Assembly (NCBI GenBank): GCA_903847405.1
Contig: CAINDP010000233.1
Span: 1 to 41,780, forward strand
Source: an uncultured Myxococcales bacterium
GTDB lineage: Bacteria; Myxococcota_A; UBA9042; DTJE01
DNA: 41,780 nucleotides
Direction of reading: 5' to 3'
Shown one piece after another: positions 27,516 through 40,192 of this stretch. The notes under the pieces were generated by a model, which saw only the letters and a program-made list of their open reading frames with translations, did not search any database and had not been told where the DNA came from. Both the position numbers and the translations under genes were made by a program. How positions within the stretch are numbered: position 1 is the stretch's first letter; every line of letters starts with the position of its first letter.

Positions 27516-29381
27516 TCAGAGGGCGTCGATCCGGGTGAGGGTTCCGTCGGCGTCCTGGACGACCAGGTAGAAGGCCGTGGGCGTGGCCACCACGTAAAGG
27601 GTCGCCACCGTCCCGGACGCGAACGCCGGGGTCTGGAAGGAGGCGTCCGGCGCGCCGTCGTTGTTCCCGTCCAGCAGCAGCGTGCAGGGGGTCGCGGCCG
27701 GAAGGTCGACCCAGGCGCCGGCGTGGCCGTAGGACAGGTTCTCCCACAGCAGCCGTGTGCCTTCGGAGGGCACGGCCGCGCGGACGTCCACGTCGGGGAT
27801 CAGGTTCAGCACGCGGACCTACGCGGGACCCAGATCGGCGTCGATGCGGCCCACGCTGCCGTTGGGGAACTGCAGCGCAAGGAAGATGCCGGCGTCCTGC
27901 CGCACGATGAAGACGTTGACCAGGGTGCCGGCCGGGATCGGGAACAGCGTGAAGGTCTTGTCGATCAGGCCGTCGTAGTTCTCGTCGATGGTGATCGTGG
28001 CGGTGTCCGGCAGCGCGTCGAACGGCTCGGCCACCTCGCCGTAGCCCAGGTACGTTGCCAGGACCGGCTGGTTGCCGCCCGGCGCGTTCGCCCAGACGTT
28101 CACGGTCCCCGCCCCCTCGGCCACGTGGATCACGCTGAACCGGATCGCGTCCGCGGGCACGTCGTCGGCGGCATCCTCGATCAGCTTCGTTCCCTGGCTG
28201 ACGTCCTTGGTACCGAAGGCGACCAGCGTGTACTTCCGGTCCGCCGCCAGCGTGACCGGGCCCGACGACAGGGACGTCCCGGCGATCCCGACCCCGTTGG
28301 GCGCGAAGTCATACGTGTTGTCCCCGGCCGGCCGCTGGATGCCGTACGTGCCGTTCAGGAACTGCAGGTTGGTCGCGACGGCGTTGGGGTTCCCGTTCTC
28401 GAACACGTCGAAGGGCGCCTCGAGGGGGGCCAGGTGAACCATCCGGACGTGGGTCAGGGCCGGGGCGACGTAGTCCGCGTCGACGCGGGTCGTCGGGCCG
28501 TCGGTCGGCTGGATCAGCAGGAAGAACCCGCCGGCCGTCTTCACCACGAAGAACGTGGCCGTGGTGCCGGCGGCCAGCGTCGGCGGCGTGAAGGTGGCGT
28601 CGGGCGTCCCGTCCGCGTCCACGTCGATCCCGTAGCGGGCGGCGCCGGCCGGAACCTGGATGTAGCCGGTTTCCGCGCCGAACAGGAGGCCCGGGTAGAT
28701 GGACTGCGGGGCGCCGGTGGGCGGGAGGGCGTACACATCGACCGGGCCGACGCCCGCCGCCGCGTGGAACGCCCGCACCCGGACCGTACCGGTGGCCGGG
28801 GGCGTGAGGTTGTCCTCGAGCACCGCGATCTTCATCGTGGCCTCGGCGTCGAAGACCACCGCCGTATGGCCCGTGCCCGCGGCCAGCGGCAGGCTTTCGA
28901 CCGTCAGGACGTGCGTGCCGGCGAGGCCCGCGCCGATGGGCGCGATGTCCAGGCGGTACGTCGCCGCATCGAGTTCCAGCCACGCGGTGCTGGACGGGAA
29001 GGACAGGAGGTCCACCGCGGGCGGGGTCGCGCGATCCAGGTAGACCGACACGGTCGGGCCGTCGGGCGACAGGTGCAGCGCGCGAAGCCTGGCCGGCTGC
29101 GGCAGGGGCGCGTCGGGGCCCGTGTCCGAACCGGTATCGGAGCCGGTGTCGCCCGCGACGTCGTCCTCGGTCTCGCCGGAGGTGTCGCCGCTTTCCGCGG
29201 GCGTGTCGCCGACGGCATCCGCCGGGGCGTCGGTGGAGGTGTCGGTGTCCGTCCCCTGGTCGGCCGTCCCGTCCGTCAGGACGTCGTTCGCCGGGGTGGT
29301 CGTACCGCTATCGCACGCAGCCAGGGCCACGGCGACCAGGGCCGCCAGCGCCAGGACCGGAAACCGCTGGGTCATGTTCAA
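27516..29381 (-). pseudogene. DUF4397-repeat lipoprotein interrupted by one in-frame TAG
   Basis: The frame encodes a lipoprotein (signal peptide PVLALAALVAVALAAC) with a Thr/Asp/Gly-rich linker and then tandem DUF4397-type beta domains with the recurring pattern VR(V/A)xHxxxxxxxVDVY, SIYPGLLFG, YGIDVDADG and FFVVKTAGGFFLL. After the third or fourth domain (…RIDADLGPA) a TAG at 27821-27819 stops translation at about 520 residues. The same frame continues VRVLNLIPDVDVRAAVPSEG and a complete further domain up to a stop at 27516 (…TRIDAL). The start is TTG at 29381, six bases after GGAGGT; the ATG at 29375 is 12 bases away. The upstream portion is probably still made as a shorter lipoprotein, so loss of function is not certain. 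Confidence 0.8.
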
Positions 29382-29448
29382 GATGGAACCTCCACGTCCT
29401 TCCAGGACGGATTCGAGGGGGAAGGGCGAGACTGTCCCGCCTTGCGCC

Positions 29449-29492
29449 AAAGTAGGGCCTGAAACAGCGGCGTCAACCTTATTGCGAAGGTT
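29449..29492 (-). promoter_or_regulatory. Promoter of the DUF4397 lipoprotein with upstream inverted repeat
   Basis: On the minus strand TTGACG (29476-29471), 16-base spacer, weak -10 TACTTT (29454-29449). An inverted repeat AACCTT-attgcg-AAGGTT (29475-29492) touches the -35 box on its upstream side and could bind a regulator. Confidence 0.5.
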
Positions 29493-29543
29493 TCTCATCA
29501 ATAGGGCCGCCGGTTCTCTCGTTCCCGTTGCTGCGTCGGCCTG

Positions 29544-29572
29544 TTGACGGCCCGCAGGGCGTCCCCGATACT
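29544..29572 (+). promoter_or_regulatory. Promoter of the small membrane protein gene
   Basis: TTGACG (29544-29549), 17-base spacer, GATACT (29567-29572). The predicted start near 29579 gives a leader of about 49 bases carrying GGAGGG. Confidence 0.6.
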
Positions 29573-29627
29573 CGCTTCTAGACCGTGAACGGAAGTGTTG
29601 GCTTCTCCTTGAAACACGGAGGGTTTC

Positions 29628-29942
29628 ATGCGTCGATTCTTCACCTGGATGGTCTTTGGCGCGCTCACCGGCGTCGTCGTCGCGACTGCCCTCGCACCGG
29701 CGGTGCTCCGGACGCTCCTGGCATCCACCGGAGCGCAGGACGCGATGTGCCAGTGCGTGGAACTGGTGAACAACACCGCATCGCTGCTCATCAAGACGCA
29801 GATCTGGGGAGCGATCGTCGGCGCGACGTCGTTTCCCGCGGGCGCCTGGCTCGTGAAGCGGATGTGGACCCGCCGCAAGGGCCAGACGGTCCCGGCGAAC
29901 AAGGCGCCGCAGGAACCGAACGGACCGTCCGCCCCCGTCTGA
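29628..29942 (+). CDS. Small membrane protein of unknown function
   Basis: 104 residues. There are two hydrophobic segments (WMVFGALTGVVVATALAPAV and a weaker one around IWGAIVGATSFPAGAWLV), with a CQC motif between them and a basic, Pro-rich C-terminal tail. GGAGGG lies four bases before the ATG, and a TTGACG promoter sits upstream, so it is very likely expressed. I do not recognise a family. Its neighbours on both sides are on the opposite strand, so context gives no hint. Confidence 0.6.
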   Translation: MRRFFTWMVFGALTGVVVATALAPAVLRTLLASTGAQDAMCQCVELVNNTASLLIKTQIWGAIVGATSFPAGAWLVKRMWTRRKGQTVPANKAPQEPNGPSAPV

Positions 29943-30033
29943 GGGGGTCGGCCAGGGCACCCATCACCTGCGTTCCCGGTCCTCGGGTGCGTTTCGTGGG
30001 GTTGCGCCTTCGAGCGATCGACCTGCAACGCGA

Positions 30034-34580: not shown

Positions 34581-37205
34581 CTAGACACGACGACGGCGCA
34601 CCGCCAGGAGCGGCAACGCCAGCAGCAGCCACCAGGCCGCCGGGCCGGCCGTCCGGCCGGTCGCCGGGCCGCCCGCGGAGCACCCGCCCCCGCTGGAACC
34701 GCCGCCGACGTCCGCGGCAGGAAGATCGGTCTGGACCGTTTCGCCGCCGGCCTCGATCACGTCCGATTCCAGGCCGCGGTCCGGCGTGACGCCCGGATCC
34801 CCGGGACCCGGGTCCGGCGTCGGCTCGGGCGGGCAGGCCGCCTGCACGATCCCTGCAGGCACCGTCGCCGACACCTCGGTCGACAGCCCCGCGGCATTGG
34901 CGGCCCGGACCGCCAGCAGGCCGCCCGCCGCCAACTGGAACGGGTCGGGACGGAACGTCACCATCCGGGACCCCGGCAGTTCCCCCGGGACCTCGGTGCC
35001 GCCCGCGGGCTGCCAGGCACCCGACAGATCCTTCCACTCCACGCCCGTCAGGGGCGAATGGGGTTCGGTCACCGCCACCGAAACCTCGACAGGCCACCGG
35101 GCCTCGGCCGCCGCGGTGGTGCAGGCATCCGAGTCCTCGACGACCAGTTCCTGCAGATCGACGATCGGCGCCGACCCGTCGATGCCCACGGGCACGGACT
35201 GGCCCGTGACGCCGGAGGTTCCGTCCAGGTACCGCGTCGTCGCCGACACGACCACCAGCGTCCCGTCGGCCAGGTCCGCCCCGAAGCACGCCTTCGCGGC
35301 CCGGGCCGGCACGGCCTCCACCGATGCGCTGGTCACGATCGGTTCGTCGATCGTCGCGGCCGTACTGACGAAGCGGTCCACCTGGCCCTGGAAGGGCTCC
35401 TCGGCGACCTGGAACGCCACGCACGCCCGATCCGCCTGCCACCCGGCCGGCGTCGCGACCTGCGGGACGCCGTGGAGCGGCACGAACACCCAGGTGTCCT
35501 GGTAGGCCACGGGCTGGGCGGTCACGACGTCCGAGCCCAGGAAGCCGGGCGCGGTCACCCGCAGTTCCAGCGGCTGGTCCCCCGCCTGGTCGAACACCGC
35601 GATGCCGTTCCAGCCCGTCACCTTCACCCGGTCGTTTTCCCCCACGACCACGTTCGACAGGTCCACGCCGCCCCCCGCCGGAGCCACGAACGCCTTCACG
35701 AACAGGTTCGCGTCGGTCACGTCCGGCGTGTCCACGCGCAGGGACCGCGGCCAGTGGTCGTAGGTGCCGAAGTTCCCGCGGATGGCGGGCCGGTCCAGGT
35801 CGATGTCGCGGATCGTCCACAGGCGGTCCCAGGACGTGGTGAACCAGGGGCCCGTGCCCCCTTCGACCCACAGTTCGGCGTACAGCCCCAGGGCGCCGGA
35901 GGTGCCGATCGTGAACGGAACCTCCAGGGTGGACCGGGGCGTCGATACGTAGGCCAGCGGATCGATCGTGAAGGGCGCGCCGCCCTCGCCGACCACCGGG
36001 TCGTTGCCGGAATACAGGCCCGGCAGGTCCTTGCGGATCTGCGCCTTCACGGTGCCCGTGAAGGGGTAGGCGCTGAAGAACTGCACCACCAGCGTCCCCG
36101 CCTTCCCCTCGTCGGCGGCGGTCAGGTGCGTGAGGTCGGCGCCGTTCCCGTCCTTCCAATCCAGCGAGTCGACGATCAGCCCCGGGACGACCTGGTACGC
36201 CTCCGGCACGAACTGCATCATGGACTGGATGTTGCCGGACACCAGCGCGTTCGGGGTCCAGGACGGGAAGCCGAAGACCGGTGCCGGCGCCGACGCGCGG
36301 TCCGCGGCCCACCGGGGCGCCAGAAGGCCCAGGAACTCGCGGTAGGGCTGCCAGTAGGCGTCGGTGACGACGGCGGACCGCAGGAACCGCTGGTATTCGC
36401 GTTCGAACTGCTCGGATTTCTCCATGCGTTCGCCCAGCAACTGCTGGATGAAACCTCCCATGAACAGTTCCGCCAGGTCCGGCGGGGGCTGATCGGTGAT
36501 GGAGTGCGCGAACTCCTTGGCGCTGTCGCGGTCCTGGCCGCCCAGAAGACCGTCCGCCTGGTCCAGCATGCCCGCGAACTCGCCCCACGCCTTGTCGCAG
36601 TCGGTCGACCGCCCCTCGGACGCTGCCCCCTCGGTGCAGTACCAGACGAAGGCTTCCCGGCCGCGGGCCTTGGCCTCGTCGCCCTCCAGGTAGAAGTCGT
36701 ACAGGACGTCGACGATCGCGTCCCAGTCGCCCAGGACCAGGTCGCCGAACGCCTCGAAGATGCCCTCGGATTCGCCCTTGTTGTCGTCGTAGGTCTTCGT
36801 GAGGTCCAGGAGGCCCAGGGCGGATGAGGCCGTGAGCGTCGGCGCAAGGAACATCTCGCAGGCGGGATCGGACGCCGACGCGTGGGCGAGGTGGCCCAGG
36901 GCAAGCGCCCGGAACAGCGGCCCCTTGGCCTTCCCGGCGTCCAGCAGGTGGTAGGACAGCGCGAAATTGTGACCGAACTTCAGTTCGGCGGCCATCTGCT
37001 GGAAGTCGGGGGAGATGGCCCCGAGGCGGAGGTACGACAGGGCCAGGGGGTCGGACGCGACGACCGCCCATTCCGGGTCGCTGGCAACCAGGAGGTCGAG
37101 GGCGCGGCCGGCATCCCGCACGTGGACCCCAGGTCCGCAGGGGAGCGCGGGCCGGGCGGCCAGGACCAGCGACAGCAGGACCAGAATGGATGCCAGTCGA
37201 CGCAT
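34581..37205 (-). CDS. Zinc-dependent phospholipase C-like secreted protein with MYXO-CTERM tail
   Basis: 874 residues. A signal peptide (MRRLASILVLLSLVLAARPA) precedes LPCGPGVHVRDAGRALDLL. The His/Asp set of zinc-dependent phospholipase C and the N-terminal domain of GPI-specific phospholipase D is present: His28, Asp67 in SPDF, His79, His86, and GHLAHASASD with His105, His108, Asp113. About 350 residues of helices follow, then beta-rich domains. The end has a Pro/Gly/Asp linker, GGGSSGGGCSAGG, a hydrophobic helix and RRRR, a MYXO-CTERM signal. It is expected to be exported and surface-displayed. The N-terminal domain call is by metal-ligand pattern; lipid substrate is unknown. The start ATG at 37205 has GGAGGT five bases upstream. 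Confidence 0.8.
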   Translation of the reverse strand: MRRLASILVLLSLVLAARPALPCGPGVHVRDAGRALDLLVASDPEWAVVASDPLALSYLRLGAISPDFQQMAAELKFGHNFALSYHLLDAGKAKGPLFRALALGHLAHASASDPACEMFLAPTLTASSALGLLDLTKTYDDNKGESEGIFEAFGDLVLGDWDAIVDVLYDFYLEGDEAKARGREAFVWYCTEGAASEGRSTDCDKAWGEFAGMLDQADGLLGGQDRDSAKEFAHSITDQPPPDLAELFMGGFIQQLLGERMEKSEQFEREYQRFLRSAVVTDAYWQPYREFLGLLAPRWAADRASAPAPVFGFPSWTPNALVSGNIQSMMQFVPEAYQVVPGLIVDSLDWKDGNGADLTHLTAADEGKAGTLVVQFFSAYPFTGTVKAQIRKDLPGLYSGNDPVVGEGGAPFTIDPLAYVSTPRSTLEVPFTIGTSGALGLYAELWVEGGTGPWFTTSWDRLWTIRDIDLDRPAIRGNFGTYDHWPRSLRVDTPDVTDANLFVKAFVAPAGGGVDLSNVVVGENDRVKVTGWNGIAVFDQAGDQPLELRVTAPGFLGSDVVTAQPVAYQDTWVFVPLHGVPQVATPAGWQADRACVAFQVAEEPFQGQVDRFVSTAATIDEPIVTSASVEAVPARAAKACFGADLADGTLVVVSATTRYLDGTSGVTGQSVPVGIDGSAPIVDLQELVVEDSDACTTAAAEARWPVEVSVAVTEPHSPLTGVEWKDLSGAWQPAGGTEVPGELPGSRMVTFRPDPFQLAAGGLLAVRAANAAGLSTEVSATVPAGIVQAACPPEPTPDPGPGDPGVTPDRGLESDVIEAGGETVQTDLPAADVGGGSSGGGCSAGGPATGRTAGPAAWWLLLALPLLAVRRRRV

Positions 37206-37380
37206 CGAGCACCTCCGGGAATAGGGACGCCAGGACCGGGGACGGCCTGCCGCGCAAGGATACGGCATCCTGGGGCAGGATCCGAGAGTTCCTTGCCGGC
37301 CCCGGACGACCTTCGGCCGGGTTGCCGATGGACGACGGCCACGCGGATCGGATACGGTGCGCAAGGAACGGAGGTGCGGC

Positions 37381-39516
37381 ATGGGCGTGGCTGGACGAGG
37401 CGGCTCCGGGATCGCGACACTGGCCCTGGCGTTGCTGCTGACGGCCTGCGGAGGGGGGACCAACGGGTCCGATGTCGCCGGGGATCCGGGCCCGGCGGAC
37501 CTCCTGCCGTCAGACGGCACGACGGTCGACGGGACGAACGCGGACGTGCCGGCCGAGCTCCCGGATCGCGACCTGCCGGAAACCCAGGCGCCGGACCCGA
37601 TCCCGGGCGACGTGGATCCGGAAGCCCTGGTTCTGCCGTCCGAGGATCTACCCCCAGCAGTCGAGCTGCCCGCCGGCGTCGCCCTGAGAGTCGTCACCCT
37701 GAACGTCTACGGCTTCCACTACGCGACGCCCGAGGCGATCGGCGCGTTCCTGGGCGGGCTGGACCTGGACGTCGCGATGCTGGAGGAGATCGGCGCGGAC
37801 ACCGCCGCCCTGGTCGCGACCGCGGCCAACCTTCCCTACGTGGCCGCCGGGAGCGTCGGCACGGCCATCCTCTCGAAAACCCCGCTGATCGACGCAGCCG
37901 AGGTGCCCCTGGTCGAGGGTCGGGGCCTGCTGCACGCGACTACCGTCGTGGATGGCGTCACGTTCTCGGTCTATGCCGCCCACATTTCGTGGCACGTCGA
38001 GGGCAACCTCCAGGCGAAGCAGATCGCCGCCGAGGTGCTGGCCGCCGACCCCCTGCCCCACCTGGTGATGGCCGGCGACTTCAACGACGAGCACTACAGC
38101 ACCCAGATCAACTACCTGGAAGCGGTGCTGACCGACGCGGCGACGGCGACGGGCTGGTATCCGGGGCAGCACATCACGTGGCCGTCCACCGGCTTCGACG
38201 AAACCGAGGGCGCCCAGACGATCGACCTGGTGTTCTACCGCAAGGCGTTGCCGGCCTTCGTGACCGGGCTTGCGGCCCTGAACCTGGCGCCGGTGCTGTC
38301 CGACCACAAGCCGGTCGTGGCGGACCTGCTGTTCCCGCGCGACGATACGCCGTTCGCCGGTGACCCCCTGGCCGCCGGCCGGGACCCCTTCGCCGCCTTC
38401 CCGCCCGCCGAAACGCGGCCCCTGAACCTCCTGGTGAACCCCGGCGCGGAGGACGGTCTGAACGGATGGGACGTCGGCGGGGGGGCCCAGGCAGGCGCCA
38501 CGTGCCTGCACCTGGCGCCCCGGACGGGCGAGGCCCTGTTCAAAGGCTTCGACGCGCCGATCGCGCCGGAGGTCTCCTGGTCGTCGCTGTCGCAGGTCGT
38601 GGACCTGGCGACGCACGCCGCCGCGATCGACGCGGGGCGCGGGCGCCTGTACGCCGCCGCCTTCCTGGCCAGCGGGTACCGCACCATCGAAAAGAACGGC
38701 GAGGTGTCGAACCTCCTGACGACCTACTCCGACGGCGAGGTCATCGTCGAAACGCTGGACGCGGCGGGCGTCGCGCTGTCCCGGACCGTGTCGGGCCGGC
38801 GGGACACGCTGGCGTGGCATCCCTTCGCGGCGGTCGTGGAAGTGCCCCCGGGCGCCCGGTCGGCCCGGGTCACGTGGCTGGCCCACTACAAGTCCCAGGG
38901 GGGCGACGCCAACAGCGCGGCCGTCGACGACCTGTACCTGGGGTTCGAGGAGCGTGCGACGGCCCACGACGTCCTGGGCGGGACCCTCGTCCCCGGCGGC
39001 GGCAAGCCCGGCGACCCGGCCCCCTTCACGGTCGCGCCCGGCTGGGCCACGATGGACGACGGCCAGCCCGTGGGGCCGTGGGGCATCAGCATGTTCCCGC
39101 CCTATTGCGCCTCGGGCAAGGCCTGCTTCATTGCGAATCCCAGCGTCGATCCCGACGCCGAGCCCGCCGTCGGACCGGCCGCCCTGTCCCGGACCGTCGA
39201 CCTGACCCCCTGGGCCGCCGACGTGGACGCGGGCCGGCTGGCGCTGCGGTGGGCGGCCTCCCTGCGGACGTTCGGCGCGCTGACCTCGGTCCGTCTTGCG
39301 CTGGTGGTCCTGGACGCCGACGGAACGCCCTGGGCGACCTTCGAATCGCCCTCCCAGCAGGCGGCCGAGTGGACCCGCGTGGTGCAGCGGACCCGCATGC
39401 CGCCGAACGCCCGCACGGTCCGCCTGGAGGTCCGCGCCCCCCTGGATCGGCAGGACGACACGGTCTTCGCCGACGAAATCTCGCTGGTCCCCCTGCGACT
39501 TCCCGCCCCGGAATGA
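37381..39516 (+). CDS. Endonuclease/exonuclease/phosphatase-fold lipoprotein with two C-terminal beta domains
   Basis: 711 residues. The lipobox LLTAC gives lipid Cys23, followed by a long Asp/Pro linker to about residue 100. The EEP domain has its motifs in order: RVVTLNVYGF (Asn), AMLEEIG (Glu, about 133), AAHISWH, VMAGDFNDEHY (Asp and Asn, about 233), TIDLVFY and SDHKPVV (Asp-His, about 309). Such metal-dependent enzymes cleave phosphodiesters of nucleic acids or lipids. Two related beta-sandwich regions follow (NLLVNPGAEDGLNGWDVGG and the segment around VAPGWATMDDGQ), like carbohydrate-binding modules. GGAGG lies before the ATG. Substrate (DNA, sphingolipid or other) is not determined. 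Confidence 0.85.
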   Translation: MGVAGRGGSGIATLALALLLTACGGGTNGSDVAGDPGPADLLPSDGTTVDGTNADVPAELPDRDLPETQAPDPIPGDVDPEALVLPSEDLPPAVELPAGVALRVVTLNVYGFHYATPEAIGAFLGGLDLDVAMLEEIGADTAALVATAANLPYVAAGSVGTAILSKTPLIDAAEVPLVEGRGLLHATTVVDGVTFSVYAAHISWHVEGNLQAKQIAAEVLAADPLPHLVMAGDFNDEHYSTQINYLEAVLTDAATATGWYPGQHITWPSTGFDETEGAQTIDLVFYRKALPAFVTGLAALNLAPVLSDHKPVVADLLFPRDDTPFAGDPLAAGRDPFAAFPPAETRPLNLLVNPGAEDGLNGWDVGGGAQAGATCLHLAPRTGEALFKGFDAPIAPEVSWSSLSQVVDLATHAAAIDAGRGRLYAAAFLASGYRTIEKNGEVSNLLTTYSDGEVIVETLDAAGVALSRTVSGRRDTLAWHPFAAVVEVPPGARSARVTWLAHYKSQGGDANSAAVDDLYLGFEERATAHDVLGGTLVPGGGKPGDPAPFTVAPGWATMDDGQPVGPWGISMFPPYCASGKACFIANPSVDPDAEPAVGPAALSRTVDLTPWAADVDAGRLALRWAASLRTFGALTSVRLALVVLDADGTPWATFESPSQQAAEWTRVVQRTRMPPNARTVRLEVRAPLDRQDDTVFADEISLVPLRLPAPE

Positions 39517-39556
39517 CCGGCCGGGATATCATCGGGCGGGCGGTGTCGGGGCGCGG

Positions 39557-40192
39557 ATGATCGGCGGCTTCCTCCAGGGTCTGACCATCGGCCTCCTGGC
39601 GGGCATCCCCCTCGGCCCGGCCAGCGCCTCCATCGTCGACACCGCCCTGCGTCGCTCGCTGCCCCGGGCACTGGCCATGGGCTTCGGCGCGGCCCTGGTG
39701 GACTTCGCCTACTGCCTGGGCGCCGCCACGGGATTCGGCGCGCTGCTCCAGGACCGGCCGGGCATCGCGTCGGCGCTGCGGATCGTGGGCGGCGGCGTGC
39801 TGGTGGCCCTGGGGATCCTGATGATGGTGCGCCGGCCCCCGGACCCGATGCGCGTCCCGATCCACCGCCCGGTCCGGGCCAGCAGCCTGCTGGCGGCCGC
39901 GGGCACGGGCATCGTCATCAGCGGCCTGAACCCGGCCCTGATGGCGACATGGCTGGTCCTGGCGGGGACGGTCCTGGCGGGCCTGTCGGTCACCGAGGCC
40001 CTGGTGGTGTCGCTGGGCGTCTTCCTGGGGACCCTGGCGTGGTTCGTGGCGATCGCCCTGGCGGCCCATCGGGGCCGTGCCAGCCTGGGCGCCCGTGCCG
40101 TGTGGATCACGCGGGTCGCGGGCGGCCTCCTGGTGGCGTACGGCCTGTTCCTGCTGGTGGAGCCGGTGCTGTCCCGCCTGCTGGAGCCCTGA
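39557..40192 (+). CDS. LysE/RhtB-family exporter
   Basis: 211 residues with six membrane segments. The start LQGLTIGLLAGIPLGPAS with the Pro-Gly-Pro-like turn in TM1 is characteristic, and GLNPALMATWLVLAG in TM4 matches the SNP-K region of the family. These proteins export amino acids or similar small molecules. The start ATG at 39557 follows GGGGCGCGG only, so the ribosome-binding site is weak. It starts 40 bases after the EEP-lipoprotein stop and may be co-transcribed. Confidence 0.85.
   Translation: MIGGFLQGLTIGLLAGIPLGPASASIVDTALRRSLPRALAMGFGAALVDFAYCLGAATGFGALLQDRPGIASALRIVGGGVLVALGILMMVRRPPDPMRVPIHRPVRASSLLAAAGTGIVISGLNPALMATWLVLAGTVLAGLSVTEALVVSLGVFLGTLAWFVAIALAAHRGRASLGARAVWITRVAGGLLVAYGLFLLVEPVLSRLLEP

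Follow-up and report, generated by a model that had tools for sequence, protein, structure and literature searches.

A putative surface-anchored metal-dependent phosphodiesterase of the PC-PLC/S1-P1 superfamily, with a proposed acidic third metal site, in an uncultured Myxococcales bacterium

The DNA studied here (a stretch of 41,780 nucleotides from an uncultured Myxococcales bacterium, hereafter the window) encodes on its minus strand a protein of 874 residues. We read this protein, at a probability of about 0.52, as a metal-dependent phosphodiesterase of the PC-PLC/S1-P1 superfamily that is secreted and anchored at the cell surface and whose third metal site is made of carboxylates. Sequence and model together tip the balance slightly towards a metal-dependent phosphodiesterase, and both phospholipid headgroups and nucleic acids would be compatible as candidate substrates. 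The combination of an invariant core with a consistently acidic third site may offer a natural test of the role of the third metal, and of the use of calcium or iron by this superfamily.

Gene layout and fold of the N-terminal domain

The coordinates proposed for this gene in an earlier note, 34581-37205, match a real open frame exactly (minus strand, 874 aa). The frame starts with ATG; a longer GTG-started frame (to 37697) is less likely, since the relatives align from the ATG. From its N-terminus, which resembles a signal peptide, the protein runs through a helical domain (residues 23-332) and a beta-rich region (341-786) to a linker (787-838) and a tail, laid out as follows.

34581..37205, minus strand: whole coding sequence, 874 aa plus stop (open frame; homologues similar in length and start)
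37212..37216, minus strand: GGAGG, likely ribosome-binding site, 6 bases 5' of the ATG (read from the sequence)
37140..37205, minus strand: signal-peptide-like N-terminus, residues 1-22 (from the sequence; putative cleavage before Cys23)
36210..37139, minus strand: helical domain of PC-PLC/S1-P1 nuclease fold, residues 23-332 (AlphaFold2 and VIA-align)
34848..36185, minus strand: beta-rich region, residues 341-786, several Ig/FnIII-like domains (structure model; VIA-align)
35466..35717, minus strand: carboxypeptidase-regulatory (transthyretin-like) domain, about residues 497-580 (PF13620; VIA-align)
34692..34847, minus strand: disordered Pro/Asp/Gly-rich linker, residues 787-838 (pLDDT mostly <50)
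34587..34691, minus strand: MYXO-CTERM sorting tail, residues 839-873, with Gly-Cys, hydrophobic helix and Arg cluster (TIGR03901)

Taken alone, the query protein has no match in Pfam, even at an E-value of 10, and none among PDB sequences; profile searches of the PDB sequences gave weak rows or none. Fold searches with the whole-protein model were swamped by the beta domains, and the N-terminal domain was thus folded separately, with an alignment of the query and 15 relatives (A2) as the input to AlphaFold2 (residues 23-332, mean pLDDT 89.0, pTM 0.89). When this model was compared with known structures by VIA-align, as the earlier note had suggested for zinc phospholipase C, the top eight rows all fell within the PC-PLC/S1-P1 superfamily, each being a PC-PLC, an alpha-toxin or an S1/SmNuc1 nuclease (136-161 residues aligned, at Z 6.0-7.1, which is middling for a helical protein), and the ninth was an unrelated structure at Z 2.9. 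These rows comprise the alpha-toxins 1ca1 (Z 7.1, 136 aligned, 3.4 A) and 1olp (Z 7.0), the PC-PLC 2fgn (Z 6.6, 157 aligned, 4.3 A), SmNuc1 8qjn (Z 6.3) and the S1 nuclease entries 5fb9, 5fbg, 7qta and 5fba (Z 6.0-6.3), and each of the eight superpositions begins at residue 1 of the model and mature residue 1 of the enzyme. Plain Foldseek returned nothing below E 0.48 for the same domain, hence no significant E-value, with S1 nuclease appearing only at E 1.7 amid unrelated rows. The R2-like ligand-binding oxidases (Mn/Fe) that it listed at E 1.9 and up were set aside; they are absent from the VIA-align rows shown.

On the sequence side, PF00882 weakly matches 12 of the 16 N-terminal domains of the family at E up to 10 (best E 1e-4), the query not being among them, and in the genome scan two relatives (L059 and L062) score 20.6 and 20.5 bits, below the gathering cut-off of 26.8 bits. 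An hhalign comparison of A2 with seven canonical PF00882 proteins of the same phylum (A3) gave a probability of 96.5 and an E-value of 9e-10 over columns 1-103; as judged by such profile comparison, the kinship of the domain with the known PF00882 family is beyond chance. Because the top structural rows all belong to one superfamily and sequence evidence stands beside them, it is nearly certain that the modelled domain has the all-helical fold of the PC-PLC/S1-P1 superfamily, in which the N-terminus lies at the active site.

As the top rows lie only about one Z unit apart, the modelled fold cannot separate a phospholipase from a nuclease. One might thus think not of a lipase but of a nuclease or nucleotidase at the surface, serving to scavenge phosphate or nucleosides: S1 nuclease and SmNuc1 fall within one Z unit of PC-PLC, the first His lies five positions after the N-terminal residue, just as His32 follows Trp27 in SmNuc1 (PMC11705217), and the divergent neighbouring gene encodes an Exo_endo_phos domain. 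We consider this rather unlikely, as the weak matches of the family go to PF00882, which is of the phospholipase C type (12/16), and the S1-P1 nuclease family does not occur among the Pfam matches of the 16 N-terminal domains.

Metal ligands: a conserved core and a putative acidic third site

From the nucleases to PC-PLC, this superfamily is described as keeping its three-metal cluster despite low sequence identity (PMC4144908). In S1-P1 nucleases the cluster comprises nine residues, namely one W, five H and three D (PMC4144908, PMC11705217), and nine such ligand residues, including Trp27 and His32, are reported for SmNuc1 (PMC11705217); in Bacillus cereus PC-PLC, Zn1 is bound by D55, H69, H118 and D122, Zn2 by H128, H142 and E146, and Zn3 by W1 and D122 (PMC10420013). 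The corresponding positions of the query are these.

37137..37139, minus strand: Cys23, expected mature residue 1, at the position of Trp1 of PC-PLC (alignment, hhalign, superposition)
37122..37124, minus strand: His28, predicted metal ligand, His32 of SmNuc1 (16/16; hhalign)
37005..37007, minus strand: Asp67, predicted metal ligand and general base, Asp55 of PC-PLC (16/16; hhalign)
36969..36971, minus strand: His79, predicted metal ligand, His69 of PC-PLC (16/16; hhalign)
36882..36884, minus strand: His108, predicted metal ligand, His118 of PC-PLC (16/16; hhalign)
36867..36869, minus strand: Asp113, predicted bridging ligand, Asp122 of PC-PLC (16/16)
36855..36860, minus strand: Cys116-Glu117, Glu117 replacing the His of canonical PF00882 proteins (hhalign profile alignment)
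36753..36767, minus strand: Glu147-x3-Glu151, proposed counterpart of His142-x3-Glu146 of PC-PLC (from order and spacing)

Six of the nine ligand positions are kept in the query (the N-terminal residue, H28, D67, H79, H108 and D113), and the residues of the superfamily's two-metal core (N-terminal residue, H, D, H, H...D) are present, at the level of alignment and hhalign, in all 16 members of A2. H14 is a further metal ligand of Bacillus cereus PC-PLC. The five H/D ligands of the query family are invariant (16/16), stand in hhalign register with the canonical ligands and account for five of the 12 invariant columns of A2. Each of the eight proposed side-chain ligands is an identical residue in at least 75% of the 16 sequences, a result for which the test against random sets is partly circular in the case of E147 and E151, chosen by conservation, but not for the positions placed by hhalign. 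As the 15 relatives share 21-53% identity with the query, such conservation of the ligands argues against decay.

This bears on the possibility that catalysis has been lost and that the protein serves as an adhesin or receptor at the surface, the metal cluster of the helical domain being structural or binding and the beta domains doing the work. In its favour are the large beta region, which in the fold search resembles pilins, MSCRAMMs and fibronectin domains, the altered third metal site and H-to-D spacing, and the presence of surface receptors such as TraA among MYXO-CTERM proteins (PMC11980579). However, D67 and the core His are invariant in 16/16, some of these members being only 21-28% identical to the query, and pseudoenzymes usually lose such residues, which makes this alternative unlikely.

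The N-terminus would itself be a ligand in a phosphodiesterase of this superfamily. Five positions ahead of H28, the members of the family carry C, W, Y, F, S or H, and the residue preceding this mature-1 position is Ala in eight of the 16, Pro in six, and Gly and Ser in one each; cleavage of the signal peptide could thus yield residue 1, as in PC-PLC and SmNuc1. A Pro before the cut is unusual for signal peptidase, and in the query, where Pro precedes it, cleavage before Cys23 is uncertain. Among the cysteines, Cys23 and Cys116 occur together in 7/16 members, are both missing in 9/16 and never occur singly, and Cys190 and Cys203 are both present in 10/16 and both missing in 6/16, all being raw counts that ignore kinship. 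The simplest reading of these patterns is that of two disulfides, the first of which would tie the N-terminus to the helix bearing D113 and E117. The co-occurrence of Cys23 and Cys116 thus places the N-terminus beside the metal helix independently of the structure model. In LmPC-PLC, Trp1 is described as packing on residues 121 and 124, adjoining the bridging Asp (PMC10576769). Two distant members (L036 and L039) share three other cysteines, in the columns of residues 32, 63 and 146, which may reflect another disulfide or metal arrangement. Since the superpositions begin at mature residue 1 and Cys23 and Cys116 co-occur, the indirect evidence favours a convergence of the predicted ligands at the first two metal positions.

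The earlier note had held the metal-ligand pattern to be intact. We find instead, from the alignments, a conserved variant: a Glu for the first third-site His, most likely a pair of Glu for the HxxxE/D motif, and an altered spacing of the bridging pair. The hallmark H-x3-D of zinc phospholipase C is H-x4-D in the query and five relatives (L002, L003, L004, L005 and L007), and H-x3-D in the other 10 of the 16. For the extra residue between H108 and D113 (window 36867-36884), a helical bulge is the sole explanation that we can offer. The column of residue 117 holds E in 12 sequences, Q in three and D in one (n=16; the placement of L039 is uncertain), and the same position is His in 7/7 canonical PF00882 proteins of the phylum. 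These canonical proteins also carry, in 7/7, an H-x3-E after a loop of variable length, and no HxxxE/D motif was found at the expected downstream place in the alignment of the query family, which has E147-x3-E151 in the next helix. The column of E147 holds E in 15 sequences and Q in one, that of E151 E in 15 and D in one, both exceptions being in the same protein (L012). Neither global nor low-threshold hhalign paired E147 and E151 with HxxxE, and E145 and D155 (14/16 each) are alternative candidate ligands. The third site, made of His and His-x3-Glu in zinc phospholipase C and of His, His and Glu/Asp in the known enzymes at large, thus appears, as far as the sequences go, to be E117, E147 and E151 here; neither that canonical set nor the nine-residue S1-P1 cluster is found in the query, where other residues replace the third-site His and a Cys takes position 1.

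A conventional phospholipase C with three zinc ions and the canonical set of ligands, as the earlier note had it, would agree with the superfamily fold and with the retention of six of the nine ligand positions throughout the 16 members; zinc can also bind carboxylates, and LmPC-PLC crystals held iron at two sites though the activity is zinc-dependent (PMC10576769). Against it, all 16 members have Glu, Gln or Asp in the place of the first third-site His, which is present in 7/7 canonical proteins, and the downstream HxxxE/D motif is missing, so that we regard this reading as quite improbable.

For the phosphodiesterase with a carboxylate third site, one might propose the following scheme. Export by Sec and removal of the signal peptide would make residue 23 the new N-terminus, whose backbone would hold one metal ion together with His28 and Asp113; a second metal would be held by Asp67, His79, His108 and Asp113, and Asp67 would orient a water at the metals for attack on the phosphodiester. 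A third metal would sit on Glu117, Glu147 and Glu151. Because this site is proposed to consist of Glu, and not of two His and an acid, its ion would probably be harder than zinc (Ca, Mg, Mn or Fe), or else a weakly held zinc. The tail would be lipidated and cut by a myxosortase-like protease, leaving the enzyme displayed on a stalk of beta domains.

An acidic third site is also seen in four GPI-PLD-like proteins of Myxococcota with weak PF00882 matches (A4: L052, L053, L055 and L057), which have, invariant in 4/4, H, D, H and H-x3-D, followed by a D at +4 (D104) and by D126-x3-D130. Among them L057 matches TIGR03901 above the cut-off (23.8 bits), L053 and L055 below it (15.8 and 16.6 bits), and L052 not at all. 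The source genome itself holds two canonical PF00882 paralogues (L022:1426-2256 and L023:1429-2298) in which the His ligands are kept; scanned to their C-termini, these two and a further canonical PF00882 protein, L047, gave no MYXO-CTERM match. One might speculate, tentatively, that in two separate branches of surface-anchored Myxococcota proteins the three-zinc PC-PLC/P1 cluster has become a two-site core with an all-carboxylate third site (Glu in the query family, Asp in the GPI-PLD-like one), giving mixed-metal phosphodiesterases tuned to extracellular ions such as calcium.

Tail, relatives and genomic context

The long beta domains and sorting tail described in the earlier note are borne out, the region of residues 341-786 being beta-rich in the model and the tail matching TIGR03901. 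Within this region, residues ~497-580 align with carboxypeptidase D at Z 13.1 (81 aligned, 1.6 A; VIA-align), and PF13620 is found in five of the 10 proteins of the family alignment A1 (best 1.5e-6). The query tail scores 21.2 bits against TIGR03901, above the cut-off of 20, and at E up to 1 the model matches 7/10 A1 proteins, one of the unmatched (L010) ending at a contig edge. In the genome scan, seven other MYXO-CTERM tails were above the cut-off at E 0.001, an E-value that the query tail missed. Two distant family members in which a tail was seen by eye (L036 and L038) had no TIGR03901 match at E 0.1.

MYXO-CTERM proteins are predicted to be lipidated and routed to the surface via type II secretion, and MrtX of Myxococcus xanthus is described as responsible for the cleavage and surface anchoring of one of them, TraA (PMC11980579). 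The genome studied here has one MrtX-like frame, of which two pieces match the model (112.2 and 35 bits; curated cut-off 180). The tail and this MrtX-like protein make surface anchoring of the 874-aa protein likely. The fusion of a zinc phospholipase C-like domain to a MYXO-CTERM anchor, as first proposed, thus stands on the fold (Z 6.0-7.1) and on the tail (21.2 bits), the MrtX-like protein scoring below its cut-off.

A search with the single protein matched 17/89 genomes at E 0.001, five of these via short stretches, mostly of the tail, and the A1 profile found the family in 18/377 genomes of the phylum sample and 16/234 genera (E 1e-10); by the same profile, the two other species of the source genus are without it. 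The scan of viral contigs gave no relative, and of two scans of genome contigs the first gave none and the second nine loci, all in records titled like MAGs. The named relatives come from Myxococcota, 'Deltaproteobacteria', Bradymonadales and Myxococcales isolates, plus one 'proteobacterium'. Left out of A1 and A2 were (i) L006, L011, L018 and L019, whose frames are broken in two or truncated at a contig end, and (ii) L013-L017, L020 and L021, which are short matches, tail-only matches or second pieces of one gene. Duplicates of genes already included make up L024-L034 and L041-L043. The pairs L011/L018 and L006/L019 represent two relatives, each split across two frames, where assembly errors are possible.

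The downstream gene on the same strand encodes a protein with no Pfam match. The divergent upstream neighbour (37357-39516, plus strand) encodes 719 aa with an Exo_endo_phos domain (50.1 bits) and a lipobox-like start (LTAC); its product would be a second likely secreted phosphodiesterase, with a start about 150 bases away, and it has no relative at the other nine loci. In a search for a conserved operon over 10 loci (the window and nine others), the sole recurrence was a LysE-type gene, at 3/10. This LysE-type translocator (39296-40192, plus strand, 75.7 bits) also lies near the homologous gene in L064 and L069. Elsewhere in the window, the gene at 27819-29960 (minus strand) encodes 713 aa that include DUF4397 domains (143.1 bits). 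The conserved neighbours at the 10 loci gave no hint of lipid metabolism, nor did the gene context lend support to an enzymatic role, and the query protein probably acts alone. Phospholipase activity, and likewise the lipid scavenging or predation suggested in the earlier note, would be speculative, since nucleases share this fold and cluster and the neighbours show no such link.

Comparison with known systems

A literature search that mostly left subscription journals outside its reach found no text joining MYXO-CTERM or Myxococc with 'zinc-dependent phospholipase C', or naming PF00882, and the words 'MYXO-CTERM' and 'phospholipase' together in one review.

With the Bacillus cereus-type PC-PLC, the query shares the fold, an N-terminal residue at the active site and counterparts of H14, D55, H69, H118 and D122; it differs in having Glu for His128, the proposed ExxxE for His142-x3-Glu146 and H-x4-D, and, unlike that enzyme, in the fusion of the N-terminal domain to beta domains and a MYXO-CTERM tail. 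With PF00882 (Zn_dep_PLPC, GPI-PLD type), the first half of the domain is in register and the second half unaligned, and the PF00882 paralogues of the source genome, in contrast to the query, keep the canonical His and have no MYXO-CTERM match. The A4 branch resembles the query in its weak link to the PF00882 superfamily, its MYXO-CTERM-type tail in some members and its acidic third site, but has Asp for Glu there and no close sequence similarity (hhalign probability 7.9). The S1-P1 nucleases (SmNuc1, S1) share with it the fold (Z 6.0-6.3) and the spacing of five from residue 1 to the His, whereas their third-site His-His-Asp is replaced in the query and there is no sequence match. Judged from the alignments, the proposed Glu-type third site is a variation on the known cluster of the superfamily.

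Finally, the query has the Gly-Cys, hydrophobic helix and Arg cluster of TraA and other MYXO-CTERM/myxosortase proteins, and differs from them in its cargo, a domain of PC-PLC/P1 fold. The myxosortase pathway, described only recently, would thereby gain a probable hydrolase among its cargo, a point that bears on what uncultured Myxococcota carry at their surface.
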